In this document: in pieces, positions 30,500 to 57,002 of the stretch
Layout: the number at the start of each line of letters is the position of its first letter
How positions within the stretch are numbered: the stretch's first letter is position 1
Source of the DNA: Streptomyces sp. NBC_01244
GTDB lineage: Bacteria; Actinomycetota; Actinomycetes; Streptomycetales; Streptomycetaceae
DNA: 64,000 bases
Direction of reading: 5' to 3'
NCBI RefSeq assembly: GCF_035987325.1
Contig: NZ_CP108488.1
Coordinates: forward strand, 4,960,001-5,024,000
The notes under the pieces: generated by a model
Told to the model about the DNA's origin: nothing
Seen by the model: only the letters and a program-made list of their open reading frames with translations
Database searches by the model: none
Program-made: the position numbers and the translations under genes

Positions 30500-30500
30500 G

Positions 30501-33457: not shown

Positions 33458-33596
33458 GGGAAAGTCCTCCAGATTCTGTGTACAGAGCGGCAGTTGAGCC
33501 GATGTGTCACACGCGGCGATCCTCAGGCCAAAGTTTCCGGGCGGACAACGGAACAGAGGTCGGTGTGTCACCTCCGGAGTGACCGGAACACGGCGT

Positions 33597-41124: not shown

Positions 41125-41225
41125 GGTCGGATTGTGCGCGGGGCCACACGGCAGGGCACACCCTGCTCGCCAAGTCCGTCAACTCCCGGGCCCGCGGGGC
41201 TGTTCGCCGTCCTAGGGTGACGTCC

Positions 41226-41678
41226 GTGCAGCTGGAATTCACCGAAATCGACCCCCACGGGCCCGTGTTCGAGTCGCTGGCCCGCCCCCTCTACCGGGCG
41301 CTGCGGCCCGCCCTGTCCGACGCCGCCTTCACCGCCTTCGCCCGCGAGGGCGCGGCCCAGGGGCTGGTGTTCACGGCCGCACGGACCCCCGACGGCCGCT
41401 GCGCGGCCCTGGCCGCGCACCGGGTCCTGGCCACCAGCCGGGGCCGGGTGCTGTTCGTGGACGACCTGGTCGGCGATCCCGCGCTGCGCGGGGCCGGGGC
41501 GGGCGGCGCGCTGTGGGAGGAACTCGTACGGCGTGCCCGGCTGGCCGGCTGCGTCCGCGTCGAGCTGGACTCCGGCGTGACCAATCACGGGGCGCACCGC
41601 TTCTACCACCGAAAGCGCATGGCGGTGGCCGCATTTCATTTCTCCTACGACCTGGCGCAGGACCCGGAGACGACCTGA
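41226..41678 (+). CDS. GNAT family N-acetyltransferase
   Basis: A 150-residue acetyltransferase with the CoA loop DPALRGAGAGGALWEELVRRA (about 84-104) and HRFYHRKRM near the end, a typical compact GNAT. I chose GTG 41226 because AGGGTGA lies just upstream; GTG 41217 in the same frame is an alternative. It is the first of a plus-strand series with the SRPBCC gene 56 bases downstream. A GNAT at this place could be a self-resistance or tailoring enzyme. Confidence 0.82.
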   Translation: MQLEFTEIDPHGPVFESLARPLYRALRPALSDAAFTAFAREGAAQGLVFTAARTPDGRCAALAAHRVLATSRGRVLFVDDLVGDPALRGAGAGGALWEELVRRARLAGCVRVELDSGVTNHGAHRFYHRKRMAVAAFHFSYDLAQDPETT

Positions 41679-41734: not shown

Positions 41735-42277
41735 ATGACACAGGTCACCAGCACCGAGAATGCACTCTTCGAACTCAGCTCCTCGCTTTATGTGGACGCC
41801 GCTCCGGCGGACGTCTACGACATCGTGAGCGATCTCGCCCGCAGCGGCGAATGGAGCCCCGAATGCGTCGGCGGCGAATGGACCGTCGGTACCCCGCGCA
41901 CCGTCGGTTCCGTCTTCCGCGGTGAGAACCTGCGCAGCGAGGACGTCGTCGGCTGGGCCCCCGTGGTGCGCGGTACCTGGTTCACGGAGTCCGAGGTCGT
42001 CGCCGCCGAGCCCGGCCGGGCCTTCCAGTGGGCCATGCGCGACAGCGCCGGCCGCAGGCAGCAGAGCGTCTGGGGCTTCGCGATCGAACCCCAGGGCACC
42101 GGCTCGCGCCTCACCCACCACTTCCGCATGATCTCCGCCACCGAGGGGATCCGCGGTATCACCTCGGAGATGTCCGACACCGAGCGGGAGGCGTTCTTCG
42201 CCGAATGGGGCGCCAAGGTCGAAGGCGACCTCGGCACGACCCTCGGCCGGATCAAGGACGTCGTCGAAGAGAACTGA
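41735..42277 (+). CDS. SRPBCC (polyketide cyclase/START-like) protein
   Basis: A 180-residue protein with the helix-grip fold: SSLYVDAAPADVYDIVSDLARSGEWSPE, FTESEVVAAEPGRAFQW, GSRLTHHFRMI. This family binds hydrophobic small molecules and includes aromatases, cyclases and ligand carriers. With no polyketide synthase here, it may act as a cyclase or carrier of an aromatic intermediate. It is 106 bases upstream of the ligase gene on the same strand. Confidence 0.85.
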   Translation: MTQVTSTENALFELSSSLYVDAAPADVYDIVSDLARSGEWSPECVGGEWTVGTPRTVGSVFRGENLRSEDVVGWAPVVRGTWFTESEVVAAEPGRAFQWAMRDSAGRRQQSVWGFAIEPQGTGSRLTHHFRMISATEGIRGITSEMSDTEREAFFAEWGAKVEGDLGTTLGRIKDVVEEN

Positions 42278-42383: not shown

Positions 42384-43961
42384 ATGCTTCTGCAGCGCAT
42401 AGCAAATCGCGGAATCCGCCTGGGAACCCTCCTCGAACGAGCTGCGTCCCGGCACCCCTCGAACGTCCTGATCCTCGATCACGACCTCGACGCGGCCCCG
42501 CAGCTGGGCCGGCGCGCCACGATCGCCGAGGTGGCCGACGCCGTGGACGACCTCGCGTCCCGGCTGTGGGCCGCCGGGGTGCGCCCCGGCGGGCGGGTCG
42601 TCATCTACAAGTCGGACGCCTTCGACATCACCCTGCTGGCCTGCTCCGCGGCCCGCATCGGCGCGGTGCCCGTGCTGCTCTCCCCCCAGCTCGACGGTGC
42701 GACCGCCGCCGAACTGGTCCGCCGCACCGAGCGGCCGTTCCTGGTCACCGACCGGAGCAAGCTGGACGAGGAGCTGCCCGAGGGCATCTTCGGGATCACC
42801 GAGCGGGTCCTGCTGACCGCCGGCGTCCACGAGCAGGCGACGGCGCTGGCCGACCTGGCCGGCGCACGCCGGATCCCCGCGGTCACGATGCCCGTGGACC
42901 ACCCCACGCTCATCACCCACACGTCCGGCACCACCGGCACCCCGAAGCTGGCCGTGCACACCGGCCGCAGCCTGCAGGCCCGTTACCGTCCGCAGGCCGC
43001 CGCGGTGCTCCCCGTACTGCCCGGCCGCGAGACGATCGCGCTGCACGTCTCCTTCGTGCACTCGCGGCTCTTCACCGCCCTCGCCATCTCGCTGCTGCGC
43101 GGCTTCCCGATCCTCGTCCTGCGCGAGTCGGACCCGAAGCACGTCGGCGACCTCTTCGCCCAGCTGCGGCCCGGTGTCCTGGAGGCCCACCCCAACTCCT
43201 TCATGGAGTGGGAGGAGCTCGCCGAGGACCCGCGCGGCCCGCTGGCCAACGTCAAGCTGTTCAGCAGCACCTTCGACGCGATCCACCCGCGTACGGTGCG
43301 CACCCTGCTGGGCGCCACCCGCCGCAGGGGCGCCCTCTTCGGCCAGCTGTACGGCCAGAGCGAGGTCGGCCCCGCCGTCGTACGGGCCTTCTCGCGCCGC
43401 CGCGGCGAGGACGACGACGGCCGCTGCGTCGGCATCCCGTTCCCCGGGATGACGGACGTCCGCGTCGTCAGCCGCGACGGCAACCCGGTGTCACCCGACA
43501 ACCCCGGCTACATCGAGGTCCGCAGCGACGGCCGGATCGTCACTTACCTCGGCGAGCAGGAGCGCTACGACAGCCAGGTCTCCGACGGAGGCTGGTGGCG
43601 GATGGGCGATGTCGGCTACCGCACCAAGTGGGGCTGCGTGCACCTGCTGGACCGCGAGGTCGACCTCATCGAGGGCTTCGGCAGCACCCTCGCCGCCGAG
43701 GACACCCTCTTCGGGAAGCTCGAGGAGCTCACCGAGGTCATCGTCATCCCCGGCCCGGACGGCCGGGCGACCCCGATCGTCTGCACCAAGGACGACAAGC
43801 CGCTGGACGCCATCCGCTGGCAGCGCGCCGCGGCGGGCCTGTCCCCGATGGCCGACCCCGTGCACATGCGGCTGGAAGAACTGCCCCAGACCGCCACGTC
43901 CAAGATCAAGCGACTGGAGCTGGTCCGGCTGATCGCCGCCCGGACCGCCCCGCTCGCCTAG
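42384..43961 (+). CDS. AMP-forming ligase 1, divergent (candidate diazotase or acyl-CoA ligase)
   Basis: A 525-residue ANL-family enzyme. The P-loop THTSGTTGTPKLAVH (about 177-190), YGQSEVGPAVV and a C-terminal lysine in TATSKIKRLEL are present. The hinge region is unusual: VHLLDREVDLIEGFGSTLAAEDTL stands where other members have GRxxDxIxxxG. Ligase 2 (56999-58573) shares this hinge, so they are paralogues. ANL enzymes next to nitrite-forming genes are known to activate nitrite with ATP for diazotisation (CreM in the cremeomycin pathway). The alternative is activation of a carboxylic acid such as an anthranilate. It lies 18 bases upstream of a flavin hydroxylase gene. Confidence 0.72.
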   Translation: MLLQRIANRGIRLGTLLERAASRHPSNVLILDHDLDAAPQLGRRATIAEVADAVDDLASRLWAAGVRPGGRVVIYKSDAFDITLLACSAARIGAVPVLLSPQLDGATAAELVRRTERPFLVTDRSKLDEELPEGIFGITERVLLTAGVHEQATALADLAGARRIPAVTMPVDHPTLITHTSGTTGTPKLAVHTGRSLQARYRPQAAAVLPVLPGRETIALHVSFVHSRLFTALAISLLRGFPILVLRESDPKHVGDLFAQLRPGVLEAHPNSFMEWEELAEDPRGPLANVKLFSSTFDAIHPRTVRTLLGATRRRGALFGQLYGQSEVGPAVVRAFSRRRGEDDDGRCVGIPFPGMTDVRVVSRDGNPVSPDNPGYIEVRSDGRIVTYLGEQERYDSQVSDGGWWRMGDVGYRTKWGCVHLLDREVDLIEGFGSTLAAEDTLFGKLEELTEVIVIPGPDGRATPIVCTKDDKPLDAIRWQRAAAGLSPMADPVHMRLEELPQTATSKIKRLELVRLIAARTAPLA

Positions 43962-43979: not shown

Positions 43980-45245
43980 ATGTCAAGAATCATCATCGTG
44001 GGCGGCGGCATCGGCGGGCTCGCCGCCGCCCTCGGCATCAGCGAACGGGGCCACGAGGTCCTCGTACTGGAACGCGCGCCGGAGTTCGCCGAGATCGGCG
44101 CCGGCATCCAGATCGCCCCCAACGGGCTGCACGCCCTGGACCGGCTCGGCGTCGGCGAAGCCGCCCGCGCCATCACCGTCCGCATGGACGAACTGCGCTT
44201 CATGGACGGTGTCTCGGGCGCGCACGTCGCGAGCCTGCCGCTCACCGAGGACTACCGCGCCGAGTTCGCCAATCCGTACGCCGTCGTCCACCGCGCCGAA
44301 CTGCACCGCATCCTGCTCGACCGGTGCCTGGCCGACCCGCTGATCAGCCTGCGCAGCGGTGTCACCGTCACCGGATACACCCAGGACCCGGCACGGGCCA
44401 CCGTCCTGCTCGCCTCCGGCGAGGCCGTCGACGGCGACGCGGTGATCGGCGCGGACGGCATCAACTCGGCCGTCCGGGCCCAGCTCGTCGGCGACGGCGC
44501 GCCCCGCGTCTCCGGGATCACCGTCTACCGGGCGATCATCCCGATGGACGAGGTCCCCGAGGACCTGCGGATGCCGCGCTCCGTCGCCTGGTGGGCCGGA
44601 CCGCACTGCCACCTCGTGCACTACCCGATCGCCGGCGGCGCCTACCTCAACCTCGCGGCCAGCAAGGACGACGGCCGTACGGAGCCCTTCGCCGGCGTGG
44701 CCGTCGACGAGGCCACCGTGCTGCGGGAGTTCGCCGGCCTCGGCGAGACGGCCCGGCGCCTGATGGCCGCGGGCCACGACTGGAAGTCGTGGATGCTCGT
44801 CGACCGCGACCCGGTCTCCCAGTGGACCGACGGCCGCGTCGTCCTCCTCGGCGACGCCGCCCATCCGATGCTGCACTACGCCGCCCAGGGCGCCTGTCAG
44901 GCCCTGGAGGACGCCGTCGTGCTCGGCGCCCTCATGGACGGCCCCTCCGGCGAACTCGCCGTCCGCTTCGAGAAGTACAACGCGCTCCGCCGCGAGCGCA
45001 CCGCCCGCATCCAGCTCGCCGCCCGCTGGAGCACGGCGCTGTGGCATCCCGCGGGCCCGGCGGCCGACGAGCGCAACGCGCTCCTGTCCGGCCTGTCGGA
45101 GACCGAGATGCGCGGCCACGTCGGCTGGATGCACGGCCTGCGCGACCCCCTGCGCGACCCCCTGAACGACCCCCTGAACGACCCCCTGAACGACCCCCTG
45201 AACGACCCCCTGACCGTCCCTCTCCCCAACGGAGCCCCCGCGTGA
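43980..45245 (+). CDS. FAD-dependent aromatic hydroxylase (3-hydroxybenzoate 6-hydroxylase/salicylate hydroxylase type)
   Basis: A 421-residue class A monooxygenase with IIIVGGGIGGLAAALGI, EIGAGIQIAPNG, VIGADGINSAVR and VVLLGDAAHPMLHYAAQGA. It hydroxylates an ortho- or para-activated phenol or aniline, possibly with decarboxylation, as salicylate hydroxylase does. The C-terminus carries a DPLN repeat (about 389-412). Its TGA overlaps the GTG of the creE-like gene. The same pairing of aromatic hydroxylase, ANL ligase, CreE and CreD exists in the cremeomycin cluster, which supports a diazo-forming role. Confidence 0.86.
   Translation: MSRIIIVGGGIGGLAAALGISERGHEVLVLERAPEFAEIGAGIQIAPNGLHALDRLGVGEAARAITVRMDELRFMDGVSGAHVASLPLTEDYRAEFANPYAVVHRAELHRILLDRCLADPLISLRSGVTVTGYTQDPARATVLLASGEAVDGDAVIGADGINSAVRAQLVGDGAPRVSGITVYRAIIPMDEVPEDLRMPRSVAWWAGPHCHLVHYPIAGGAYLNLAASKDDGRTEPFAGVAVDEATVLREFAGLGETARRLMAAGHDWKSWMLVDRDPVSQWTDGRVVLLGDAAHPMLHYAAQGACQALEDAVVLGALMDGPSGELAVRFEKYNALRRERTARIQLAARWSTALWHPAGPAADERNALLSGLSETEMRGHVGWMHGLRDPLRDPLNDPLNDPLNDPLNDPLTVPLPNGAPA
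45144..45215 (+). repeat. 12-bp in-frame tandem repeat, six copies (DPLN)
   Basis: GACCCCCTG plus AAC or CGC repeats in frame six times at the 3' end of the hydroxylase gene. It encodes DPLR, four DPLN and DPLT. It directly precedes the overlapping start of the creE-like gene. Confidence 0.92.
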
Positions 45246-47230
45246 CGACCTCCAACTCCCACACTGAACTGTGCGTGATCGGGGCCGGCCCCCGCGGTCT
45301 CTCGGTCCTGGAACGGCTGCTCTCCCGCGAGCGCCACACCCCGCAGCACGCGTCCGTGGTCATCCACGTGGTCGACCCCGCAGCCCCGGGCGCCGGCGCC
45401 GTCTGGCGCACCGAGCAGTCCCGCCACCTGCTGATGAACACGGTGGCCTCGCAGATCACCGTCTACACCGACGAGACGTCGAAGATCGACGGCCCGATCG
45501 AGAACGGCCCGAGCCTGTACGAGTGGGCCCAGTCGCTGGCCCTGCTGGCCGACGAGGCCGCGTACACCGCGCCGACCCTCGCCGAGGCCCGTGCGCTCGG
45601 CCCCAACACCTACCCCTCGCGCGCCTTCTACGGCGAGTACCTGCGCGACTCCTTCGAGCGCCTGGTGGAGAACGCCCCCGCGCACGTCACCGTCGAGGTG
45701 CACCGAGCCAAGGCCGTGGCCATCGCCGACACCCACGGCGTCCCCGGCGGCCCCCAGGGCGTCCGCCTCGACGACGGCACCCGCCTCAACGACCTCGACG
45801 GCATCGTCCTGGCCCTCGGCCACGTCCCCTCGCGCCTGACCGTCCGCGAGGAGCGCACCGCGAGCCTGTCGCGGATCCACCACCTCACCTACGTCACCCC
45901 CGGGAACCCGGCCGACGTCGACCTGAGCACGGTGGAAGCCGGCCAGAACGTGCTGCTGCGCGGTCTCGGCCTCAACTTCTTCGACCACATGGCCCTCTTC
46001 ACGGCCGGCCGCGGCGGCGTCTTCGAGCGCGAGGACGGCAAGGTCGTCTACCGGCCCTCCGGCCAGGAGCCCAAGCTCCACGCCTTCTCCCGGCGCGGTG
46101 TCCCGTACCACGCCCGCGGCGAGAACGAGAAGGGCAGCGACGGCCGTTACTTCCCGCGGCTGCTCACCCCCCAGCTCATCGAGAAGCTGCGCGAGCGGTC
46201 CGACGACGGCACCCCGGTCAGCTTCTCCGCCGACCTGTGGCCCGTCATCTCCCGCGAGGTCGAGTCGGTCTACTACGCCACCCTGCTCTCCACCCGCGGC
46301 CAGGACGACTCCGTCCGCGAGGAGTTCACCCGCCGCTACCTGGCCGTCCCCATCGGTGAGGACACCGGCGACCTGCTCGCCGAGTTCGGCATCGGGGACG
46401 ACGCCCGGTGGGACTGGGACCGCCTGTCCCGCCCGTACGGCGACCGGAAGTTCACCAGCCGCACCGAGTTCCACGCCTGGCTCACCGAGTACCTGGCCGC
46501 CGACGTCGTCGCCGCCCGCGCCGGCAACGTCAGCGGACCGCTCAAGGCCGCCCTCGACGTCATGCGCGACCTGCGCAACGAGATCCGCCTCGCCGTCGAC
46601 CACGGCGGTCTGGAGGGCAACTCGCACCGCGACGACCTCGAGGGCTGGTACACCCCGCTCAACGCCTTCCTCTCGATCGGCCCGCCGGCCTCCCGCATCG
46701 AGGAGATGATCGCGCTGATCGAGGCCGGGGTGCTCACCATCACCGGCCCCGGCACGCGGGTCCGCATCGACCCGACGACCCAGCAGTACGTCGCCGAGTC
46801 CCTCGAGGTGCCGGGCGAGCCCATCCGCTCCCGCGCCCTCATCGAGGCCCGGCTGCCCGAGCCCGACATCCGGCGCACCGCCGACCCGCTGCTCCAGCAC
46901 CTGCTCAACACCGACCAGGCCGCGCCCTACACGATCGCCGGCAGCCACGGGACGAACTACGAGACCGGCGGCCTCGCGGTCACCGAGCGCCCCTACCGGC
47001 TCATCGACGGCCGCGGCCGGGCCCACCCGCGGCGCTTCGCCTACGGGGTGCCCACCGAGTCCGTGCACTGGGTCACCGCGGCCGGCATCCGCCCGGGCGT
47101 CGACTCCGTCACCCTCGGCGACTCCGACGCCATCGCCGGCGCCGCGCTGTCCCTGCCCCCGGTCTCCCAGGTGCCCGCGGGCATCCGCCCGGTGGTGTCG
47201 CACGCCGACTTCGCCGGGGTGATCGTGTGA
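45242..47230 (+). CDS. creE: CreE-like flavin-dependent N-monooxygenase (L-aspartate to nitrosuccinate)
   Basis: A 662-residue protein of the FAD/NAD(P)-binding PF13454-like group, long for a monooxygenase but normal for the CreE/FzmM/KinM family. It has CVIGAGPRGLSVLERLL at the N-terminus (FAD), RHLLMNTVASQITVYTDET, IVLALGHVPSR and NVLLRGLGLNFFDHMA, a long middle part and PAGIRPV near the end. CreE oxidises the amine of L-aspartate to nitrosuccinate in several diazo and N-N pathways. The assignment rests on size, flavin motif and a CreD-like lyase gene directly downstream with a GTGA overlap. No other known N-hydroxylase shape fits better. Function with another substrate is possible. Confidence 0.76.
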   Translation: MTTSNSHTELCVIGAGPRGLSVLERLLSRERHTPQHASVVIHVVDPAAPGAGAVWRTEQSRHLLMNTVASQITVYTDETSKIDGPIENGPSLYEWAQSLALLADEAAYTAPTLAEARALGPNTYPSRAFYGEYLRDSFERLVENAPAHVTVEVHRAKAVAIADTHGVPGGPQGVRLDDGTRLNDLDGIVLALGHVPSRLTVREERTASLSRIHHLTYVTPGNPADVDLSTVEAGQNVLLRGLGLNFFDHMALFTAGRGGVFEREDGKVVYRPSGQEPKLHAFSRRGVPYHARGENEKGSDGRYFPRLLTPQLIEKLRERSDDGTPVSFSADLWPVISREVESVYYATLLSTRGQDDSVREEFTRRYLAVPIGEDTGDLLAEFGIGDDARWDWDRLSRPYGDRKFTSRTEFHAWLTEYLAADVVAARAGNVSGPLKAALDVMRDLRNEIRLAVDHGGLEGNSHRDDLEGWYTPLNAFLSIGPPASRIEEMIALIEAGVLTITGPGTRVRIDPTTQQYVAESLEVPGEPIRSRALIEARLPEPDIRRTADPLLQHLLNTDQAAPYTIAGSHGTNYETGGLAVTERPYRLIDGRGRAHPRRFAYGVPTESVHWVTAAGIRPGVDSVTLGDSDAIAGAALSLPPVSQVPAGIRPVVSHADFAGVIV

Positions 47231-48693
47231 TCCGGACGGCCGACTGCCCGGCGGACGCGGGGCTGTTGTCCCCCGTTCGCGCGGGCACGCCCGTCGAAGC
47301 CGCCGTGGACGACCGGGCCTGGCTGCGCGCCATGCTCGACGCCGAAGCGGCCCTGGCCCGGGCGCAGGCCCGGCTGGGCACCCTGCCCGCGGAGGCCGCC
47401 GAGGTCATCTCGGACACCGCCCTGACGGCGGAGTTCGACCTGCGGGCGCTGGCCCTGGCCGCCCGGGAGACCGCCAACCCGGTGGTCGGCCTGGTCGCGG
47501 CGCTGACCCGCGAGGTCGCCTCCCGCGACCCGAAGGCCGCCGAGTACGTCCACCGCGGCTCCACCAGCCAGGACATCTTCGACACCGGCGCCATGCTCGT
47601 CGCCGACCGTGCCCTGCGGCTGATCCGCGCCGACCTGGCCCGCACCGCGCGGGCCCTCGGTGCCCTGGCCCTGCGCCACCGGGACACCCCGATGGCCGGC
47701 CGGACCCTGGCCCTCCAGGCCGTGCCCACCACCTTCGGGCTCAAGGCGGCCGGCTGGCGCCAGCTGGTGCTCGACGCCGAGGCCCGGATCTCCGCCGTCC
47801 TCGCCGAGGGACTGCCCGTCTCCCTCGGCGGGGCGGCGGGCACCCTCGCCGGATACCTGGAGTACGCCGAGATCGACGACGCGGGACGGCACGAAGGGGC
47901 CCCGGGCCGTACCGGTTCCGGCGCCGGCCGCACCTTCGACCGGGCCCGGTACCTCGACGAACTCGTCGACGTCTTCGCCGCGGAGACGGGCCTGGCCCGG
48001 CCCGTCCTGCCCTGGCACAGCCTGCGCACCCCGCTCGCCGACCTCGCCGCCGTGCTCGGCTTCACCGCCGCCGCGCTCGGCAAGATCGCCCTCGACGTGC
48101 AGAACCTGGCCCGCACCGAGACCGGCGAGGTCGCCGAGCCCGGCCCGGCCGGCCGCGGCGGCTCCTCCGCGATGCCCCACAAGCGCAACCCGGTGCTCGC
48201 CACCCTGCTGCGCAGCGCCGCTCTCCAGGTGCCCGTCATCGCCGCGGGCCTCACCCAGTGCCTGCTGAGCGAGGACGAGCGCTCCGCCGGAGCCTGGCAC
48301 GCCGAGTGGCTGCTGCTCCGTGAAGGCCTGCGGCTCGCGGGCGGCGCCGCGCACACGGCCGTCGAGCTCGCCGAGGGCCTGACCGCCGACCCCGGCCGGA
48401 TGGCCGCCAACCTGGCCCTGACCGACAGCCGGATCGTCTCCGAGCGGATCGCCGCCCGGCTCACCCCGGCGCTCGGCAGGCCGGCCGCCAGGGAACTGCT
48501 GACCCGGGCCTCCCGGTCCGCGGCGGCCAACGGCCTTCCGCTGGCCGCCGTCCTCGCCGAGGCCCCCGAGCTCGCGGGCCGGATCGGACGCGAGCGCCTC
48601 GCCGAGCTGTGTGACCCCACGGGCTACACCGGCGCCGCCGGCGACCTCGTCGACCGCGCCCTGGCCACCGGACAAGGAGCGGACACCCGATGA
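47227..48693 (+). CDS. creD: CreD-like nitrosuccinate lyase (fumarase/adenylosuccinate lyase superfamily)
   Basis: A 488-residue superfamily lyase. It shows EYVHRGSTSQDIFDTG (about 98-113) and the signature GSSAMPHKRNPVL (about 311-323), including the catalytic Ser of the mobile loop. PcaB (3-carboxymuconate cycloisomerase) is the closest named group, and CreD belongs there. CreD releases nitrous acid from nitrosuccinate, leaving fumarate. No other beta-ketoadipate genes are here, and the creE-like gene is immediately upstream with a GTGA overlap, while narK overlaps downstream (ATGA). This strongly favours nitrosuccinate lyase over PcaB. Confidence 0.77.
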   Translation: MIRTADCPADAGLLSPVRAGTPVEAAVDDRAWLRAMLDAEAALARAQARLGTLPAEAAEVISDTALTAEFDLRALALAARETANPVVGLVAALTREVASRDPKAAEYVHRGSTSQDIFDTGAMLVADRALRLIRADLARTARALGALALRHRDTPMAGRTLALQAVPTTFGLKAAGWRQLVLDAEARISAVLAEGLPVSLGGAAGTLAGYLEYAEIDDAGRHEGAPGRTGSGAGRTFDRARYLDELVDVFAAETGLARPVLPWHSLRTPLADLAAVLGFTAAALGKIALDVQNLARTETGEVAEPGPAGRGGSSAMPHKRNPVLATLLRSAALQVPVIAAGLTQCLLSEDERSAGAWHAEWLLLREGLRLAGGAAHTAVELAEGLTADPGRMAANLALTDSRIVSERIAARLTPALGRPAARELLTRASRSAAANGLPLAAVLAEAPELAGRIGRERLAELCDPTGYTGAAGDLVDRALATGQGADTR

Positions 48694-50060
48694 GAGGCAA
48701 GGCCTGGATCACCGAATGGGATCCGGAGGACGAGGTCTTCTGGGAGCGGACCGGCCGCCGGGTCGCGCGCCGCAACCTGTGGCTCTCCGTGCTGTCCGAG
48801 CACATCGGCTTCTCCGTGTGGAGCATGTGGTCGGTGCTCGTGCTGTTCATGTCCCCGGAGATCGGCTTCGACTTCACCAAGGCGGAGAAGTTCCTCCTGG
48901 TGGTCACGCCCACCCTGGTCGGCGCCGTCCTGCGGCTCCCGTACAGCAGCGCCGTGGCCCGCTTCGGCGGCCGCAACTGGACGGTCTTCGCGTCCGGCGT
49001 GCTGCTCGTCCCCTGCGGCCTGGCCGCGTACTTCGTGCAGCGGCCCGGCACCCCGCTGTGGGTGTTCCTGCTGATCGGCGGGCTCGCCGGGGTCGGCGGC
49101 GGCAACTTCGCCTCCTCGATGACCAACATCACCGGCTTCTACCCGCTGCGGCACCAGGGCTGGGCGCTGGGCCTCAACGCGGGCGGCGGCAACCTGGGCG
49201 TGGCCTTCGTCCAGCTGCTGGGGCTCCTCGTCATCGCCACCGCGGGCAGCACCCACCCCTCGTACGTCGCCGCCGTGTACCTGCCGCTGATCGGCTGTGT
49301 CGCGCTGCTGGCCGCGGTGAAGATGGACAACCTGGCCACCCTGCGCACCGCACCCGGCGCCCTGCGCGAGGCGGCCGCCCACCCGGACACCTGGTGGATC
49401 TCCCTCCTGTACATCGGGACCTTCGGCTCCTTCATCGGCTACGGCTTCGCCTTCGGGCTGGTCCTGCAGAGCCAGTTCGACTCCACCGCCCTGGAGGCCG
49501 CCTCCGCGACCTTCCTGGGCCCCCTGCTCGGCTCGCTGTCGCGGCCCCTGGGCGGCCGGCTCGCCGACCGCTACGGCGGCGCCCGCGTCACCCTGTGGAA
49601 CTTCCTCGGCATGACGGTCGGCACCGCCGTCCTGCTCGTGGCCTCGCTCCAGGGCTCCTTCGCGCTGTTCATCGCCGCCTTCACGGTGCTGTTCGTGCTC
49701 ACCGGACTCGGCAACGGCTCCACGTACAAGATGATCCCGGCCGTGCACGCCGCCGAGGCCGAGCGGGCCGTCGCGGCCGGCCACGACGCCGAGGCCGCCT
49801 TCACCCGATCCCGTCGGCGCTCCGGCGCGGTCATCGGCATCGCCGGCGCCGTCGGCGCCCTCGGCGGGGTCGCCATCAACCTGGCCTTCCGTACCGCGTA
49901 CGGCAGTTGGGGCACCGGAACCGCGGCCTTCGCGGTGTTCCTCGGGTACTACGGGCTGTGCATGCTGCTCGTGTGGGCCGTCTACCTGCGGCCGCGCCCC
50001 GAGCAGGGCCCCGCCGAAGTGACCCGCCCGGACCGACAGCGGAGCACCACCCGTGTCTGA
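48690..50060 (+). CDS. narK: NarK-type nitrate/nitrite transporter (MFS)
   Basis: A 456-residue MFS protein with about twelve membrane segments. The nitrate signature sequences are present: GGGNFASSMTNITGFYP and LGLNAGGGNLGV, in helices 5 and 8-type positions. It also has RLPYSSAVARFGGRNW between helices. NarK proteins import nitrate, export nitrite, or exchange the two. The ATG overlaps the TGA of the CreD-like gene, and the following nitrate reductase gene overlaps its 3' end by 8 bases. It would bring in nitrate for the reductase, or handle nitrite made by the cluster. Confidence 0.9.
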   Translation: MRGKAWITEWDPEDEVFWERTGRRVARRNLWLSVLSEHIGFSVWSMWSVLVLFMSPEIGFDFTKAEKFLLVVTPTLVGAVLRLPYSSAVARFGGRNWTVFASGVLLVPCGLAAYFVQRPGTPLWVFLLIGGLAGVGGGNFASSMTNITGFYPLRHQGWALGLNAGGGNLGVAFVQLLGLLVIATAGSTHPSYVAAVYLPLIGCVALLAAVKMDNLATLRTAPGALREAAAHPDTWWISLLYIGTFGSFIGYGFAFGLVLQSQFDSTALEAASATFLGPLLGSLSRPLGGRLADRYGGARVTLWNFLGMTVGTAVLLVASLQGSFALFIAAFTVLFVLTGLGNGSTYKMIPAVHAAEAERAVAAGHDAEAAFTRSRRRSGAVIGIAGAVGALGGVAINLAFRTAYGSWGTGTAAFAVFLGYYGLCMLLVWAVYLRPRPEQGPAEVTRPDRQRSTTRV

Positions 50061-52167
50061 GACGGCACCGGGGGAGACCGCCACGCACTGCCCGTACTGC
50101 GCCCTGCAGTGCGGGACATTGCTGACCGGGACCGGCCCCGGCACCGGGCAGGAAGGGGCGGCCGCCACGGCCGCCCCGGCCACGGCCGGCATCCCGGCCC
50201 TGGCCGTCCGCCCCGACCCCGACTTCCCCGTCAACCGGGGCGGGCTGTGCCAGAAGGGCTGGACCGCACCCGAGCTGCTCGGCGTGCCGGACCGGCTGCG
50301 CACCCCCCTCGTGCACGGCCGCCCGGCGAGCTGGGACGAGGCGCTGGACGTGGTGGCCGCCGGGCTGCGCCGGGTACAGGAGCGGCACGGCAAGGACGCC
50401 GCCGCCGTCTTCGGCAGCGGCTCGCTGACCAACGAGAAGGCGTACCTCCTGGGCAAGTTCGCCCGGGTCGCCCTCGGCACCAGCCAGATCGACTACAACG
50501 GCCGCTTCTGCATGTCCTCGGCGGCCGCCGCCGGCAACGCCGCCTTCGGGATCGACCGGGGCCTGCCCTTTCCCGTCACCGACCTCGGCTCCGCCGACGT
50601 CGTGCTCATCGCGGGCGGCAACCCGGCCGAGACCATGCCCCCGCTCATGCGGCACCTGGAACACCCCCGGCTGATCGTCATCGACCCGCGCCGCACCCGG
50701 ACCGCCGCGCGGGCCGCCCTGCACCTCCAGCCGGCCCCCGGCACCGACCTCGCGCTCGCCCTGGGCCTGCTGCACGTCGTCGTCGCGGAGGGCCTCACCG
50801 ACACCGCGTACGTCGGGCAGCGCACCCGCGGCTTCGACGCCGCGTGGAGCCGGGCCCTGTCCTGGTGGCCCGAGCGCACCGAACGGGTCACCGGTGTGCC
50901 CGCCGCCCTGCTGCGCGAGGCCGCGCGGATGCTCGCCGGCGCGGACCGCGCGTACGTGCTGACCGGCCGCGGCGCCGAGCAGCACAGCAAGGGCACGGAC
51001 ACCGTGGCCGCCTTCGTCAACCTCGCCCTCGCCCTGGGCCTGCCCGGACGCGAGGGAAGCGGCTACGGCTGCCTCACCGGGCAGGGCAACGGCCAGGGCG
51101 GCCGCGAACTCGGCCAGAAGGCCGACCAGCTGCCCGGTTACCGCAGCATCGCGGACCCCGCCGACCGGGCCCACGTCGCCGCGGTCTGGGGCGTCGACCC
51201 GGCCTCGCTGCCCGGCCCGGGCCGCAGCGCCGTCGAACTGTTCGGCGCGCTCGGCCAGGACGTCCACGCCCTGCTCGTCTTCGGCTCGAACCCGGTCGTC
51301 TCGGCCCCCGACGCGGCCCGGGTGCGGCGACAGCTCTCCGCCCTCGACCTGCTGGTCGTCTCGGACTTCGTGCCCTCCGAGACGGCGGCGCTGGCGGACG
51401 TGGTGCTGCCGGTGGCCCAGTGGGCCGAGGAGGAGGGCACCATGACCAGCCTGGAGGGCAGGGTGCTGCGCCGGCGCCGCGCCCTGACCCCGCCGCCGGG
51501 AGTCCGCACCGACCTGGAGGTGCTGTCCGCGCTGGCCGGCCGGCTCGGCTTCGACGAGAGCGCCTTCCCCGCCTCCCCGCCGGCCGTCTTCGAGGAGCTG
51601 CGCGCCGCCACCCGCGGCGGCCGCGCCGACTACTCCGGGATCAGCTACGCGCGCCTGGAGACGGGCGAGGCCCTGTACTGGCCCTGCCCCGAGGGCTCGA
51701 CGGGCACCCCGCGGCTCTTCCTCGACCGCTTCGCCCACCCGGACGGCCGGGCCGTCTTCGCGCCGGTGGACCACCGGGACGCCGCCGAACTCCGCAGCGA
51801 CCTCTACCCGCTGCTCGCGACGACCGGCCGGGTGCTGGCCCAGTACCAGTCCGGCGCGCAGACCCGCCGGATACCGGCCCTGGTCGAGGCCTCCGGCGCC
51901 GAGTGCTTCGTCGAGGTCCACCCCGACACGGCGGAGCGCGCCGGGCTCGCGGACGGCGACCGCGCCCGGGTCCGCTCGGCCCGCGGCAGCACCGAGGCCG
52001 TGGTCCGCTACGAGGGCTCCCTGCGCCCGGACACCGTCTTCCTCCCCTTCCACTTCGGGGACGGGGGCAGCGCCAACCTGCTGACCAACCCCGCCCTGGA
52101 CCCCGTCTCGCGGATGCCCGAGTTCAAGGTGTGCGCGGTGCGGCTGGAGGCGGTGGCCGCCCGATGA
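50053..52167 (+). CDS. nasC: Assimilatory-type molybdenum nitrate reductase catalytic subunit
   Basis: A 704-residue molybdopterin oxidoreductase. The N-terminus has the [4Fe-4S] cysteines CPYCALQCG and GLCQKGW. Further on are FCMSSAAAAGNAAFG (likely Mo-ligand Cys), IAGGNPAETMPPLM, VIDPRRTRTA, ADVVLPVAQWAEEEGTMTSLEGRVLRRR and a C-terminal MGD-binding part. It is the size of NasA/NasC/NarB nitrate reductases, smaller than formate dehydrogenases. It reduces nitrate to nitrite in the cytoplasm. It overlaps narK and the electron donor gene on either side. No nitrite reductase gene follows, which is unusual for an assimilation operon. Confidence 0.89.
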   Translation: MSETAPGETATHCPYCALQCGTLLTGTGPGTGQEGAAATAAPATAGIPALAVRPDPDFPVNRGGLCQKGWTAPELLGVPDRLRTPLVHGRPASWDEALDVVAAGLRRVQERHGKDAAAVFGSGSLTNEKAYLLGKFARVALGTSQIDYNGRFCMSSAAAAGNAAFGIDRGLPFPVTDLGSADVVLIAGGNPAETMPPLMRHLEHPRLIVIDPRRTRTAARAALHLQPAPGTDLALALGLLHVVVAEGLTDTAYVGQRTRGFDAAWSRALSWWPERTERVTGVPAALLREAARMLAGADRAYVLTGRGAEQHSKGTDTVAAFVNLALALGLPGREGSGYGCLTGQGNGQGGRELGQKADQLPGYRSIADPADRAHVAAVWGVDPASLPGPGRSAVELFGALGQDVHALLVFGSNPVVSAPDAARVRRQLSALDLLVVSDFVPSETAALADVVLPVAQWAEEEGTMTSLEGRVLRRRRALTPPPGVRTDLEVLSALAGRLGFDESAFPASPPAVFEELRAATRGGRADYSGISYARLETGEALYWPCPEGSTGTPRLFLDRFAHPDGRAVFAPVDHRDAAELRSDLYPLLATTGRVLAQYQSGAQTRRIPALVEASGAECFVEVHPDTAERAGLADGDRARVRSARGSTEAVVRYEGSLRPDTVFLPFHFGDGGSANLLTNPALDPVSRMPEFKVCAVRLEAVAAR

Positions 52168-53453
52168 CGCGCACCGTGATCGTGGGCAACGGCCGTTCCG
52201 GACGCGCGTACGCCGCCCGGCTCGCGGAGCGGGACGGCCGCGGACCGGTGGACCTGCTGGGCGCCGAGCCCGGACCGGTCCTGTGCCGGTCCCTGCTGGC
52301 GTCCGTACTGTCCGGCGAACTCCCCCCGCACCTCCTGCGCCTGCCGCCGCTGCCGCCCCCCGTGACCGAGCACGCCGGGGTCCCGGTGACCTCCGTGGAC
52401 CGGGTCCGGCGCGTGGTGGTCCGGGCCGACGGGCGGGCGTTCCCCTACGACCGCCTCGTGCTGGCCACCGGCTCGGCGCCGAGCCTGCCGCCGATCGCGG
52501 GCCCGGCCGGGGCGTCGCCGCCCGACGGCGTCGCCGTCCTGCGGTCGGCGGCCGACGCGGCCCGGATACCGGCCGGCGCCGTCGTGGTGCTGGGCGGCGG
52601 CCCGCTCGCCGTCGAGGCCGCCTTCGCGCTGCGCCGCGCGGGCCGCGCCGAGGTGGCGCTCGTCCACCGCGGGCCGTGGCCCCTCGACCGGCACCTGCCC
52701 GAGCGGGCCGGTCGGGCCCTGGCGGCCCGGCTGGACGCCGCCGGGGTCGAAGTCCACCTGGAACAGCGGGCGGAGTCCTACGACCGGGCCAAACTCACCC
52801 TCACCGACGGACGGGTGCTGGCCGCCGACGCTCTCCTGCCGTGCACCGGCACCCTCCCGGAGAGCCGGCTGGCCCGCGAGGCCGGCCTCCCCGTGCGCAC
52901 CGGCGTCCTCACCGACCCCGCGGGCCGCACCACCGACCCCGCCGTCCACGCGATCGGCTCCTGCGCGGAGCCGCTGCGCCCCCGCCCCGGCGGCTCCTTG
53001 CTGCGGCTGCGGGCCGACGGTGCGGGACTGCTGGCCTTCGGCAGCCTGGCGGACGCCGAGGAGAGCGTGGTCCTCACCGACCCGGCCCGTCACCGCTACG
53101 CCGAACTGGCCCTGCGCGCGGGCCGGGTGACCGGGGCCGCGGTCATCGGCCTCCCGCACGCCGTGGCCGCCGTCACCGGACTGCACGACAGCGGTGACCC
53201 CGCACCCCTCGACCTGCTGCCGCTGCTGCTCGGCAGCCCGGCGGCGGTCCCGGCCGCCGGGGACCCGCTGGACGCCGTGCTGTGCCACTGCAACGACGTC
53301 ACCGGCCACAAGCTGGCCGCCGCCTGGCGCCGGGGCGCCCGGGACCTGCCCGCACTGGCTCGCGCCACCCGCGCCACCACCGGCTGCGGCGGATGCGCGG
53401 ACGAGGTGCGCGCCCTGTGCGACGTACTCACGACCGAACGGAGCGACACATGA
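52164..53453 (+). CDS. FAD and [2Fe-2S] (BFD-like) oxidoreductase, nitrate reductase electron donor
   Basis: A 429-residue protein: a pyridine-nucleotide-disulfide-type FAD/NAD(P)H domain (FAD loop VIVGNGRSGRAYAARLA; second glycine loop VVVLGGGPLAVEAAFALRRAG) and a C-terminal BFD-like domain with the cysteines CHCNDVTGHKL and TGCGGCADEVRAL, which bind a [2Fe-2S] cluster. In Bacillus NasB the same modules pass electrons from NAD(P)H to the nitrate reductase catalytic subunit. The ATG overlaps the TGA of the reductase gene, and the next gene (a NirB N-terminal piece) again overlaps by four bases. This is the expected partner of the reductase. Confidence 0.82.
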   Translation: MTRTVIVGNGRSGRAYAARLAERDGRGPVDLLGAEPGPVLCRSLLASVLSGELPPHLLRLPPLPPPVTEHAGVPVTSVDRVRRVVVRADGRAFPYDRLVLATGSAPSLPPIAGPAGASPPDGVAVLRSAADAARIPAGAVVVLGGGPLAVEAAFALRRAGRAEVALVHRGPWPLDRHLPERAGRALAARLDAAGVEVHLEQRAESYDRAKLTLTDGRVLAADALLPCTGTLPESRLAREAGLPVRTGVLTDPAGRTTDPAVHAIGSCAEPLRPRPGGSLLRLRADGAGLLAFGSLADAEESVVLTDPARHRYAELALRAGRVTGAAVIGLPHAVAAVTGLHDSGDPAPLDLLPLLLGSPAAVPAAGDPLDAVLCHCNDVTGHKLAAAWRRGARDLPALARATRATTGCGGCADEVRALCDVLTTERSDT

Positions 53454-54652
53454 CCCGGAACCTGGTCGTCGTGGGACACGGCATGGTCGGCCACCACCTG
53501 GTGGCCGAGGTGCGCGCCCGTGACCGGGGCGGGGCCTGGCGGATCACCGTGCACGGAGAGGAAGGGCGACCCGCGTACGACCGGGTCGCCCTCTCTTCGT
53601 ACGCGCACGGCCGCGTCGCGGCCGCCCTCACCCTGCCCCGGGAGCCCCTCGAGGGCGCGGACGTCCGGCTGGGCAGCACCGTCACGGCCGTCGACCCGGC
53701 CCGGCGGACGGTGCGGTGTGCCGACGGGCGGGAGGTCCCCTACGACGCCCTGGTGCTCGCCACCGGATCCCGCCCCTTCGTACCGCCCGTCCCCGGGCAC
53801 GACCTGCCCGGCTGCCACGTCTACCGGACGATCGAGGACGTCGACGCCATCCGGGCCGCCGCCCGGCCCGGCCGGCCCGCCGTCGTCATCGGCGGGGGCC
53901 TGCTCGGCCTGGAGGCCGCCAGCGCCCTGCACGCGCTCGGCATGCGCACCGAGGTGGTCGAGCGGGCCCCGTGGCTGATGGCGCTCCAGGTCGACGCGGG
54001 CGGCGGGGCCGTGCTGGGCCGCCGGATCTCGGCCCTCGGCATCGGCGTGCACTGCGACGCCGCCGTCGAGTCCGTCGATCCAGGCGCCGACGGTGCGGTC
54101 GCCGCCGTCACCCTGGCCGGGACCGGACCGCTCCCCGCCGACCTGGTGGTCTTCGCCGCCGGGGTCCGGCCCCGCGACGAACTGGCCGCCGCGGCCGGCC
54201 TGGCCCGGGCGGAGCGCGGCGGGATCCTCACCGACCGGCACTGCCGCACCTCGGACCCGGCCGTCTGGGCCGTCGGCGAGTGCGCGGCCGTCGAGGGCCG
54301 CTGCCACGGCATGGTGGCCCCGGGGCGCCGGATGGCCGAGGCGGTCGCCGCCCAGCTGACCGGCGACCCCGCCGCCGCCTTCCCGGGCGCGGACCCCGCC
54401 GCCCGGCTGAAGCTGCTGGGCGTGGAGGTGGCCGGCTTCGGCGACGTGCAGGGGCGGGAGCCGGGCGCGCTGGAGTTCGTGCGCCACGACCACCGCACGG
54501 ACGCGTACGCCAAGCTGACCCTGGCCGCGGACGCCCGTACCGTGCTCGGCGCGGTCCTGTCCGGCGACACCCGCGCCTACCCCGCCCTGCACGCCCTGTA
54601 CGGCCGCCCCCTGACGGCCTCGGCGGACCGGCTGATGCACACGCCGGGCTGA
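53450..54652 (+). CDS. Free-standing NirB N-terminal flavin domain (no siroheme nitrite reductase part)
   Basis: A 400-residue protein that tracks the first 400 residues of NirB: NLVVVGHGMVGHHLV, ITVHGEEGRPAYDRVALSSY, YDALVLATGSRPFVPPV, YRTIEDVDAI, VVIGGGLLGLEAASAL, VFAAGVRPRDELA, GILTDRHCRTSDPAVWAVGECA and ARLKLLGVEVAGFGDVQG. NirB is about 850 residues and continues into [2Fe-2S] and siroheme domains; none of those follow, since a hairpin terminator starts 9 bases after the stop. It can thus accept electrons from NADH but not reduce nitrite. It may be a second donor for the reductase, or act on another partner. Confidence 0.85.
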   Translation: MTRNLVVVGHGMVGHHLVAEVRARDRGGAWRITVHGEEGRPAYDRVALSSYAHGRVAAALTLPREPLEGADVRLGSTVTAVDPARRTVRCADGREVPYDALVLATGSRPFVPPVPGHDLPGCHVYRTIEDVDAIRAAARPGRPAVVIGGGLLGLEAASALHALGMRTEVVERAPWLMALQVDAGGGAVLGRRISALGIGVHCDAAVESVDPGADGAVAAVTLAGTGPLPADLVVFAAGVRPRDELAAAAGLARAERGGILTDRHCRTSDPAVWAVGECAAVEGRCHGMVAPGRRMAEAVAAQLTGDPAAAFPGADPAARLKLLGVEVAGFGDVQGREPGALEFVRHDHRTDAYAKLTLAADARTVLGAVLSGDTRAYPALHALYGRPLTASADRLMHTPG

Positions 54653-54729: not shown

Positions 54730-55404
54730 TCAGCGGCGGGCGCGGAGGAGGCCCGCCACCTGGGCCACGCGGCGGCCCAGGTGGCGGACCGTCTCCAGGT
54801 CCGCCTTGGTCACGCCCTCGTCGCCCGCGTCGGTGTTCGCCTGGGCGCCGGCGCCCAGGTTGATGCCGAGGCGGTTGAGGTCGTTCTCCGAGCCCGTGGA
54901 GGAGTTCCAGCCCGGCGGGATGTCCAGGTTGACCCAGTGCATTCCGTGCTGGGCCGCCAGGATGGAGAAGTACTGGAGGGTGTGGAGCTTGTCCCCGTTC
55001 ATGGAGCCGGCCACCGTGAAGCCGGAGGCGGCCTTGTCCCGCCAGGCCTGGGCGGCCCAGCGCTTGGAGCTGGCCTCCGCGAAGGCGTGGAAGGCCGAGG
55101 AGGCGCTGCCCATGTAGGTGGGCGACCCGAACATGACTCCGTCGGCCTCGTCCAGCAGGGTCCACTGGCTGTCACTGATGGACAGCACGTCGACGAGGAC
55201 CGCGCGGGCCCCCGCCTCGCCGGCGCCGTCGCGGGCGGCGGCCGCCAGGGCCGCCGTGTGGCCGCGCCCCGAGTGGTAGGCGACGACCACCAGCGGGGAC
55301 TCGACGGCGGAGGTCCCGGTGGGGGCCTGGCCGGGGACCTGGCCGGGGACTTGGCCGGGGGTCCCGGTGGGGATCTCGCTGGGGGGAGTCATCGTCTCCG
55401 TCAT
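54730..55404 (-). CDS. Flavodoxin/WrbA-like NADPH-dependent FMN reductase
   Basis: A 224-residue protein: an unusual N-terminal tail of PGQV repeats (about 16-28), coded by near-identical 12-bp DNA units around 55320-55365, then a flavodoxin fold: VVVAYHSGRGHTAALAAAARDG, DGVMFGSPTYMGSASSAFHAF, KAASGFTVAGSMNGDK. It binds FMN and could reduce a quinone, nitro, azo or N-oxide group, or deliver flavin to the monooxygenase. Its ATG overlaps the TGA of the upstream FAD-monooxygenase gene (TGATG), so they are coupled. A second WrbA-like gene lies at 20714 but is a different branch. Confidence 0.83.
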   Translation of the reverse strand: MTETMTPPSEIPTGTPGQVPGQVPGQAPTGTSAVESPLVVVAYHSGRGHTAALAAAARDGAGEAGARAVLVDVLSISDSQWTLLDEADGVMFGSPTYMGSASSAFHAFAEASSKRWAAQAWRDKAASGFTVAGSMNGDKLHTLQYFSILAAQHGMHWVNLDIPPGWNSSTGSENDLNRLGINLGAGAQANTDAGDEGVTKADLETVRHLGRRVAQVAGLLRARR

Positions 55405-57002
55405 CAGTGTGCTCCGGTCGGGATGAGGGTCGCGGTGAGTTCCGCCTCGAGGCGGTTGAGGTCCCGGTCGTGGCCGTGGGCCGCGATGTGCCCGTCGGGC
55501 CGGACCAGGTAGTACCCGGGACGCCAGCAGCCGGTGGCGCGCAGCGAGTTGCGCCGCCGCAGCCGCTCCACCCGGACCTGGGGCCAGCGGTCGAGGATGT
55601 GGCCGATCTCGGCGCTCCAGTCGGAGCCGCCGCTGGAGGGCGGCAGCACCGCCAGGGTCCAGCCCTGCGGGTCGGCGGCGGGGCCCGAGATGCGGTGCGC
55701 GAGGGCCAGCCGGCGCGGGAAGACGGCGCCGACCTTGAGGCCGCCGGGCAGCTTCTCGTGCAGACCGCAGCCGGCCTTGCGCGAGGGCCGCTGGGTGGCG
55801 CGGACGATGTCGTAGGCGAGCCTGCGGCCCGCCATGACGGGGGCGTAGAAGTGCGAGACCAGCCCGGTGCGGTCCAGGACCCGGAAGGCGGCGTCGCGGG
55901 CCCGGACCTGGACCCGGCCGTTGAACATCCAGGCGCGCGTCTGGAAGTCGGTGTCGCGCACGATCCGCTGGGTCGCGTCCGAGCGCTCGGGCCCGTAGGT
56001 GTCGAGCAGGGAGACGGGCGAGGCGCCGTGGATGACCGCGGCCAGCTTCCAGGCCAGGTTGTGGGCGTCCTGGAGGCCGCTGTTCATGCCCTGGCCGCCG
56101 GCCGGGCTGTGCACGTGCGCGGCGTCGCCCATCAGGAAGATGCGGCCGCGCTGGAAGTCGCTGGCGTGCCGGGCGTGGACGCGGAAGACCGTCTCCCACA
56201 CCGGCTCGGTGATCTTGATGCCGCGCGGGCCGCGGTCGTAGATGACCTGCTGCATCATCTTGACGTTCACGCGCTCGCCGCCGGGCGGCATCACCGACAG
56301 GAAGCGGTAGACGCCGTCCGGCTGCGGGACGATCACCAGGGTGCCGTTGGGGTTCTGGAAGTACAGCACCTGGTCGGTGGGGAGGGTGCCCTCGATGCGG
56401 GCGTCGACGAGGGCGAACTCCATCTCGTACGTGCTGCCGGTGAAGGCCGAGCCCAGCTCGCCGCGGACCTTGCTGCCCGCGCCGTCGGCGCCGATCAGGA
56501 AGGGCACCCGGGTGCGCTCGATGAGGCCGTCGCCGTGCTCGAGGACGGCGGTGACCCCGTCGGTGGCGTTGACGTCGCCGGAGTGGTCGACCTTCTCGAT
56601 GTCGAGCAGCCGCACCCCGCGCTCGACCTTGCCGCCGAGCGCGTGCAGCCGCTCGGTGAGCACCCGCTCGGTCTCGGGCTGCGGCAGGTGCCGCGGCGCC
56701 AGGTCCTCCTGGAAGTCGAAGGTGGCCAGGTGCCGGCGCTCGGAGAAGTAGCTGAGGGCGTTGATCTGGACGGAGGCCTCCCGGATGGCGGGGCCGGCCC
56801 CCATGTCCTCCAGGATGTCCAGGGCGCGCGGCCACAGGGCCAGCGCCTTGGGCACGCCCAGCGGAACCGTCGTCAAGTCGATGATCCGGACCCCGACCCC
56901 CCGGCGCAGCAGCTCGATGGCCGCGGTCAGGCCGGTGGGGCCGGCGCCGACGATCAGGACGTCGTAGTCCGTGCCGCCCGTGCTCTGGATGTGCTCGGTC
57001 AC
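55404..57002 (-). CDS. FAD-dependent aromatic hydroxylase, PheA/TfdB type
   Basis: A 532-residue class A flavin monooxygenase. It has VLIVGAGPTGLTAAIELLRRGV, LIGADGAGSKVRGELG, IFLMGDAAHVHSPAGGQGMNSGLQDAHNLAWKLA, and a C-terminal thioredoxin-like extension (from about 410) that the PheA/TfdB family carries. Such enzymes hydroxylate phenols and aromatic polyketides. The substrate here could be the aniline or phenol part of the product. The GTG at 57002 overlaps the TGA of the upstream ligase gene (GTGA). It follows ligase 2 and precedes the flavodoxin. Confidence 0.87.
   Translation of the reverse strand: MTEHIQSTGGTDYDVLIVGAGPTGLTAAIELLRRGVGVRIIDLTTVPLGVPKALALWPRALDILEDMGAGPAIREASVQINALSYFSERRHLATFDFQEDLAPRHLPQPETERVLTERLHALGGKVERGVRLLDIEKVDHSGDVNATDGVTAVLEHGDGLIERTRVPFLIGADGAGSKVRGELGSAFTGSTYEMEFALVDARIEGTLPTDQVLYFQNPNGTLVIVPQPDGVYRFLSVMPPGGERVNVKMMQQVIYDRGPRGIKITEPVWETVFRVHARHASDFQRGRIFLMGDAAHVHSPAGGQGMNSGLQDAHNLAWKLAAVIHGASPVSLLDTYGPERSDATQRIVRDTDFQTRAWMFNGRVQVRARDAAFRVLDRTGLVSHFYAPVMAGRRLAYDIVRATQRPSRKAGCGLHEKLPGGLKVGAVFPRRLALAHRISGPAADPQGWTLAVLPPSSGGSDWSAEIGHILDRWPQVRVERLRRRNSLRATGCWRPGYYLVRPDGHIAAHGHDRDLNRLEAELTATLIPTGAH

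Follow-up and report, generated by a model that had tools for sequence, protein, structure and literature searches.

The window analysed here is a stretch of 64,000 nucleotides from Streptomyces sp. NBC_01244 (contig NZ_CP108488.1, positions 4,960,001 to 5,024,000 of the forward strand). Within it, six genes on the + strand (45242-54652) overlap end to end and encode two predicted routes to nitrite: an aspartate module, consisting of CreE and CreD, and a nitrate module, consisting of the transporter NarK, the nitrate reductase NasA, a flavin adenine dinucleotide (FAD) protein with a BFD-type [2Fe-2S] domain (FAD/BFD protein) and a NirB-like flavoprotein. Many diazo and hydrazone natural products receive nitrogen from nitrite. 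We consider it probable that both modules feed nitrite to one predicted diazotase encoded upstream of CreE, which would diazotise an arylamine of the 3-hydroxyanthranilate type. That they likely serve the same step, the building of a nitrogen-nitrogen (N-N) bond, is suggested because relatives exist which lack one module or the other. Somewhat more tentatively, we favour a dual-fuel supply, in which an oxygen-dependent aspartate route is combined with an oxygen-independent nitrate route, and in which the NarK-NasA-flavoprotein set would be a mobile nitrite cartridge, exchanged among diazo and diazeniumdiolate pathways and there either added to CreE/CreD or taking their place.

Six overlapping genes encode an aspartate and a nitrate module

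CreE and CreD share the letters GTGA at their junction. ATGA is shared by CreD and NarK, by NasA and the FAD/BFD protein gene, and by the latter and the gene for the NirB-like protein, whereas NarK and NasA overlap by 8 bp. These six genes and their overlaps had been claimed in the original prediction, and all of them are present in the sequence, with every junction as it was given there. The unit is, however, longer than claimed. A flavoprotein hydroxylase gene (43980-45245) shares GTGA with the downstream CreE and is thus a seventh overlapping gene, and the same-strand run upstream of CreE comprises genes for GNAT, SRPBCC, AMP-binding (diazotase-like) and hydroxylase proteins.

CreE (45242-47230, + strand, 662 aa), a predicted L-aspartate N-hydroxylase (nitrosuccinate synthase), carries PF13454. 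Its sole solved-structure match at E ≤0.001 is chain 8cp2 (660 bits over residues 10-637), the L-aspartate N-hydroxylase of Streptomyces sp. V2, which uses three NADPH and O2 (PMC10404684; papers given by PMC number are cited from excerpts of their text). In a profile search of the own genome, CreE was not marked by PF13434. CreD (47227-48693, + strand, 488 aa) scores 756 bits against the nitrosuccinate lyase model NF052556, above its cut-off of 650, and matches 5xny, which is labelled CreD, nearly end to end (576 bits). Sequence comparison assigns both proteins to the aspartate-nitrosuccinate (ANS) pathway. As predicted from this close homology, CreE would convert L-aspartate with NADPH and O2 to nitrosuccinate, from which CreD would release nitrous acid.

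The nitrate module starts with a nitrate/nitrite transporter (48690-50060, + strand) whose TIGR00886 score of 290.5 bits lies just below the cut-off (311.7) and which is therefore called NarK-type. The following protein, NasA (50053-52167, + strand), has a molybdopterin fold, an N-terminal [4Fe-4S] motif (CPYCALQC) and a CMSS(A) motif (NGRFCMSSA), the latter of which we take to be a marker of NasA/NasC proteins. Among the NCBIfam models, NF047855 (assimilatory nitrate reductase) fits NasA best, but the score of 715.7 bits misses the cut-off of 1100, so the gene is called NasA-type without being assigned to that equivalog. All 23 cassette NasA sequences compared (window included; five are from loci without a diazotase) have the CxxCxxxC and CMSSA motifs. 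Next come the FAD/BFD protein (52164-53453, + strand; domain match), a predicted electron donor to NasA, and the NirB-like protein (53450-54652, + strand), a predicted donor on the NAD(P)H side, which consists only of a flavin domain (400 aa) and reaches 417.5 bits against a NirB cut-off of 578. A domain search found no sirohaem domain in the flavoproteins of the window, and hence not the sirohaem/[4Fe-4S] catalytic domain of NirB; on this ground, the NirB-like protein was rejected as a true nitrite reductase.

Instead, we infer that the two flavoproteins form an electron path to NasA, along which electrons would pass from NAD(P)H to the NirB-like flavoprotein, then to the FAD/[2Fe-2S] protein and finally to NasA. 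NarK would import nitrate and NasA would reduce it to nitrite and, since the operon has no sirohaem nitrite reductase, the nitrite would remain for use. NarK, NasA, a FAD/BFD protein and a NirB-like flavoprotein are also found in assimilatory nas/nir operons, from which the window operon differs in that it is without a sirohaem nitrite reductase and is an extra copy in its genome. The families named in the original prediction hold at the level of type: CreD is over its cut-off and CreE has the 8cp2 match, while NasA, NarK and the NirB-like protein clearly belong to their superfamilies, with scores below the NCBIfam cut-offs.

A predicted diazotase and its likely substrate

The AMP-binding enzyme encoded upstream of the hydroxylase (42384-43961, + strand, 525 aa; domain match, TSGTTGTPK motif) is a predicted ATP-dependent diazotase of the CreM/Pzm18 kind. 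It is CreM-like by context, which was compared in place of the CreM sequence: it lies in a CreE/CreD cluster together with a quinone reductase and an SRPBCC protein. Against NF058622 (AvaA6) it scores 86 bits, far below the cut-off of 975. The enzyme would activate nitrite with ATP and transfer it to an aryl amine, which 3-hydroxyanthranilate genes outside the window may provide.

In the excerpts, the ANS clusters for cremeomycin, avenalumic acid, p-coumaric acid and penzonemycin have CreE, CreD and a CreM-like AMP-binding enzyme, as is the case here (PMC9323291, PMC10777205). The likeness to penzonemycin, an ANS pathway product, goes further. Its quinone reductase Pzm13 is of the same type and size as the product of the divergent quinone oxidoreductase gene at 40111-41124 (- strand, MDR family; ADH_N and ADH_zinc_N, PIG3 subfamily below cut-off), its SRPBCC protein Pzm19 has 180 aa, as has the SRPBCC/polyketide-cyclase-like protein of the window (41735-42277, + strand, 180 aa; domain match), and its gene table contains 3-hydroxyanthranilate genes (PMC9323291). 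Among 20 locus sets (window included), the quinone oxidoreductase occurs in 15 and the SRPBCC protein in 17. The own 3-hydroxyanthranilate gene set lies at C1:5034662-5039000, 10.7 kb past the end of the window, and is 63-67% identical to the genes of relatives, with the DAHP synthase seen in part. Families of DAHP synthase, SDR, isochorismatase and anthranilate-synthase-like proteins are each present in 8 of the 20 locus sets; within the stretches compared, one or more of the four occur in 10 sets and all four in five. Since the quinone reductase, SRPBCC, AMP-binding and 3-hydroxyanthranilate genes match the penzonemycin list, the substrate is likely an amine of the 3-hydroxyanthranilate type. 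Unlike the window operon, the penzonemycin and p-coumaric/avenalumic acid gene tables, as excerpted, list no nitrate transporter or nitrate reductase.

Between the end of the window and the 3-hydroxyanthranilate genes, the region L023:4405-13602 encodes KAS III, dehydroquinase II, TetR and 2-oxoacid dehydrogenase E1/E2 proteins, a possible source of an acyl partner.

An extra copy of the nitrate reductase

The nitrate genes might serve general nitrate assimilation and merely lie beside a biosynthetic cluster. They are of assimilatory type, and in two related genomes (G134 and G167) any further NasA-type match stays at or below 46%. However, the own genome (10.0 Mb, 3 contigs) contains two other close NasA-type genes (65% and 46% identity), plus weaker molybdopterin-enzyme matches, and two full-length NirB genes over the cut-off elsewhere. 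A full NirB over the cut-off is found in all 18 related genomes, and a second NasA-type match of 63-67% identity in 16 of them, although in about half of the cases this match covers the first ~550 residues only and in G071 it contains one stop. In 13 of these 16 genomes the second NasA and NirB are on the same contig, about 1-20 kb apart, and in three they are on different contigs. For the cluster copy of NasA, in contrast, not one of the 18 genomes has a full nirB on the same contig at a distance of 200 kb or less. Moreover, the cassette is found behind the diazotase also in loci that lack CreE/CreD. By these comparisons, the nitrate reductase of the window is an extra copy and not the housekeeping copy, and a general assimilatory role was considered so improbable that we rejected it. 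The cluster-like setting, the diazotase-like neighbour and the extra copy partly bear out the earlier claim: both nitrite routes are encoded in one unit, probably for a biosynthetic use, and they may fill one pool at the same time.

Conservation of the gene order in Streptomyces

We searched 392 genomes of the same genus, drawn from a larger group, for NarK, 346 of which gave a match with an E value of 1e-150 or lower, and compared the NarK contexts of 30 regions and the window. CreE, CreD, NarK and NasA follow each other in the same order in 14 of the 19 genomes whose NarK is at least 69% identical (window included); one of the 14, G331, ends at a contig edge inside NasA. This recurrence is not due to chance. 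In four further genomes (G009, G239, G356 and G069), NarK-NasA-flavoproteins come after the diazotase, with no CreE and no intact CreD nearby, and the remaining one, G130, has a different cluster. CreE/CreD were found near NarK in none of 11 further regions in which NarK is 62-68% identical; four of these have NarK-NasA-flavoproteins and seven have NarK alone. In 14 relatives whose NarK match is full-length and which also have CreD, 14-611 bp lie between the aligned stretches of the two, as measured between alignment ends, not gene ends.

Named genomes were scanned separately with CreD, and the best 80 relatives, many of which are other lyases, were kept. Among these best 80 named loci, 12 carry CreE and CreD. 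One of them, Streptomyces sp. RPT161 (L032), has all of the nitrate genes and thus both modules. In Streptantibioticus ferralitis (L031), a NarK piece of 102 residues lies within a longer contig and NasA is missing there, and no nitrate genes were found within the flanks of the other ten.

Gain and loss of the modules beside the diazotase

A search of the 392 genomes with the diazotase-like protein gave matches at E 1e-110 or better in 107 of them. In a separate protein search, the matches of the diazotase bore mostly generic names. Counted at ≥66% identity, there are 38 diazotase-like loci in 34 genomes; G108, which has a copy at both chromosome ends, is counted twice. According to the fetched flanks, 14 loci have both modules, 14 have CreE/CreD only, four have the nitrate module only, two have CreE without CreD nearby and four have neither. 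G331, counted as having both, has the diazotase and the modules on different contigs, and G017, counted as CreE/CreD only, ends at a contig edge. Two of the four loci with neither module belong to G289, in which CreE-CreD-NarK-NasA are on a third contig; one of these two has a distant CreE-like match (34%). In G108:C1, the cluster is found twice (L152 and L177), near both contig ends, in apparent terminal repeats of a linear chromosome. At L236 and L241, the surroundings of the diazotase-like gene contain neither CreE/CreD nor the nitrate cassette.

A nitrosuccinate lyase was not found in any of the four nitrate-only genomes, for which the absence of CreE was read from the fetched flanks alone. 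In G009 and G356, the latter with an assembly completeness of 96% and a contamination of 7%, a search for CreD-like proteins at E 1e-60 gave no match. The CreD-like genes of G239 and G069 were rejected as hidden lyases, as they score above the PcaB cut-off and below that of CreD.

On a tree of 40 diazotase sequences, the presence of the nitrate module requires eight changes (the four rows with neither module left out), which indicates that it was repeatedly gained or lost. L031, with its NarK piece, is the sister of L032, which has both modules. Remnants are found both ways, namely the NarK piece in L031 and a CreD remnant in G069, and there is also a remnant in L159; as read from the sequences, they record the loss of modules in both directions. 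Since there are relatives with a single module, the aspartate and nitrate routes appear to be alternatives for one need. The evolutionary argument is stronger than the original prediction could know, since each module is absent from some relatives that retain the diazotase. The modules would be partly interchangeable: the CreE/CreD route could be used when oxygen and aspartate are at hand, and the nitrate route, at a lower reductant cost, in the presence of nitrate or under a shortage of oxygen.

Alternatively, the dual state might be transitional, the nitrate cassette having been inserted beside CreE/CreD with one of the two being lost, such that each strain would have a single working route. 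The patchy distribution with its eight changes, the remnants in L031 and L159 and a broken NasA in G250 would fit this. However, the 14 dual loci are found on several branches of the tree, and the ratios of nonsynonymous to synonymous substitution rates (dN/dS) are well below 1 for both modules. Comparison of seven pairs of dual loci, three of which come from a single trio and so are not independent, gives 0.11-0.44 for CreE, 0.17-0.28 for CreD, 0.14-0.40 for NarK and 0.19-0.25 for NasA. These values are in the range of the two CreE/CreD-only pairs (CreE 0.24-0.28, CreD 0.24-0.25), except that CreE reaches 0.44. The tenth pair, L031/L032, has three genes in common. Judging from these ratios, both modules are under purifying selection, and we regard a transitional state as quite unlikely.

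The nitrate cassette in other clusters

NarK-NasA-flavoproteins also adjoin other same-strand genes in G130, G023 and G286. The neighbours in G023 are SbnA and SbnB, both over their cut-offs (2,3-diaminopropionate), an adenylation enzyme, an acyl-CoA dehydrogenase and a thioesterase, a neighbourhood that we take to be alanosine-like. G130 has genes of similar length in the same order as G023, a comparison made by length and order; one of them was scanned and gave no match. The cassette of G286 has an adenylation enzyme and a P450 in its vicinity. The cassette neighbours in G180 and G217 form no clear pathway. The NasA sequences of G130, G023 and G286 fall inside the cassette group, which a branch with a support of 98 separates from the second NasA of the own genome, in a tree of which few inner branches are well supported.

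Reductases of this kind have been linked to natural products before. Nitrate and nitrite reductases are a possible source of the nitrogen in those alanosine clusters that lack ANS genes (PMC11705231), and alnP/Q/R (alanosine) and pyr18/pyr19 (pyrrolomycin) were named as nitrate-nitrite reductase genes (PMC10831120); in another excerpt, cluster nitrate/nitrite reductases are termed non-dedicated (PMC12154649). The L-alanosine clusters, as far as these excerpts go, resemble the window in having nitrate reductase genes inside the biosynthetic cluster as an N-oxide source. They differ in that the reductases stand where CreE/CreD are missing, as an alternative and not together with them, and in that nitric oxide (NO) and a diazeniumdiolate are involved. 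The likeness of the cassettes is drawn from the grouping of the window NasA with that of G023, beside SbnA/SbnB, and not from alnP/Q/R sequences. For pyrrolomycin, components of a nitrate-nitrite reductase were suggested as the source of the nitro group, which is comparable to the nitrate genes of the window; unlike in the window, the excerpt mentions no CreE/CreD and deals with pyrrole nitration (PMC10831120).

It could therefore be that the nitrate cassette yields NO or another N-oxide via further reduction by the flavoproteins, while CreE/CreD alone supply the diazotase with nitrite, resulting in two N-oxide products. This would agree with the link of alnP/Q/R to NO in the excerpts (PMC11705231, PMC10831120) and with the grouping of the window NasA with that of the SbnA/SbnB-linked G023 cassette. 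However, a domain search of the operon saw no NO-forming reductase family, and four clusters keep the diazotase and the nitrate cassette without CreE and an intact CreD beside them, which fits a supply of nitrite for the diazotase. We consider a separate N-oxide product rather doubtful.

Evidence against the proposed common nitrite supply, and the wider meaning of the proposal

Several observations weigh against the proposal that both modules supply one diazotase. The 14 diazotase-like loci with CreE/CreD alone mean that the nitrate module is not required, and of the 12 named CreE/CreD loci only one has the nitrate set and one a NarK piece. The distances between CreD and NarK in relatives indicate that the exact overlap is not general, though the order is kept. 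NasA, NarK, the NirB-like protein and the diazotase all score below their NCBIfam cut-offs. The own genome has a second CreE/CreD pair (58% and 68% identity) on a 300-kb contig (C2:133456-136883, L021:11456-14883), with a more distant lyase nearby (C2:139.9-141.0 kb) and no NarK/NasA match in C2:122001-160000. In the dual cluster of G250, NasA (L158:10704-12787) is split by a frame change, be it real or a sequencing error. Since G134 and G167 are without another NasA-type match above 46%, the cluster copy could also serve assimilation there. Finally, as nitric oxide is the reported product of the reductases in alanosine clusters, the end product of the nitrate route could be NO.

The original prediction knew of no described coupling of the two routes. 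This stands insofar as we found no description of ANS and nitrate reductase genes in one cluster in the open-licence literature searched; the coupling idea is, however, less isolated than was held, since cluster-borne nitrate-nitrite reductases that replace CreE/CreD have already been reported for alanosine. Nitrate reductases inside biosynthetic clusters (alanosine, pyrrolomycin) are known, as is nitrite derived from aspartate, and the combination of the two in one operon would be the new part. Of 134 avenalumic-type clusters, 72 are reported to be without ANS genes, which leaves their nitrite source open (PMC10777205). A nitrate module that co-occurs with, or stands in for, CreE/CreD is a concrete candidate source for clusters of this type, and it could serve in genome mining as a mark of N-N bond clusters that are missed by searches for CreE/CreD only. 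If the proposal is true, antibiotic-type chemistry would be tied directly to environmental nitrate and oxygen, and a two-electron route could take the place of the aspartate route with its three NADPH and O2.

Neighbouring genes

Of the genes upstream of CreE, that for a GNAT acetyltransferase (41217-41678, + strand; domain match) occurs in 4 of the 20 locus sets (window included, as in the counts given below for the monooxygenase, the regulator and the transposase). The hydroxylase (43980-45245, + strand) is a FAD aromatic hydroxylase resembling 3-hydroxybenzoate 6-hydroxylase (444 bits, cut-off 459). Downstream of the operon lies a convergent gene for an FMN reductase-like protein (54730-55400, - strand, boundaries approximate; domain near 54930-55284), which did not cluster with the FMN_red family found in 10 of the 20 sets. 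It is followed by a FAD_binding_3 monooxygenase (55404-56970, - strand, start approximate; domain match; 7 sets) and a second AMP-binding enzyme (56999-58573, - strand), which is 49% identical to the predicted diazotase. The cluster thus has two AMP-binding paralogues, and the second copy is also near the cassette in several relatives. A GAF-PucR-type protein (36066-38021, - strand; 5 sets) is likely the cluster regulator. In the original prediction, nitrate supply and redox state would set the balance between the two routes; a scan for GlnR boxes gave two matches against 4.6 expected, which is not above chance.

A DDE_5 transposase-like gene at 34834-36090, with relatives in 10 of the 20 sets, may bear on the movement of the modules. 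Finally, genes for a class-II DAHP synthase, chorismate-binding, TrpC- and TrpD-type proteins, a PLP decarboxylase, a VioC-like monooxygenase, a P450 and NAT are found at 19539-34592 and likely form a separate, tryptophan-derived cluster.

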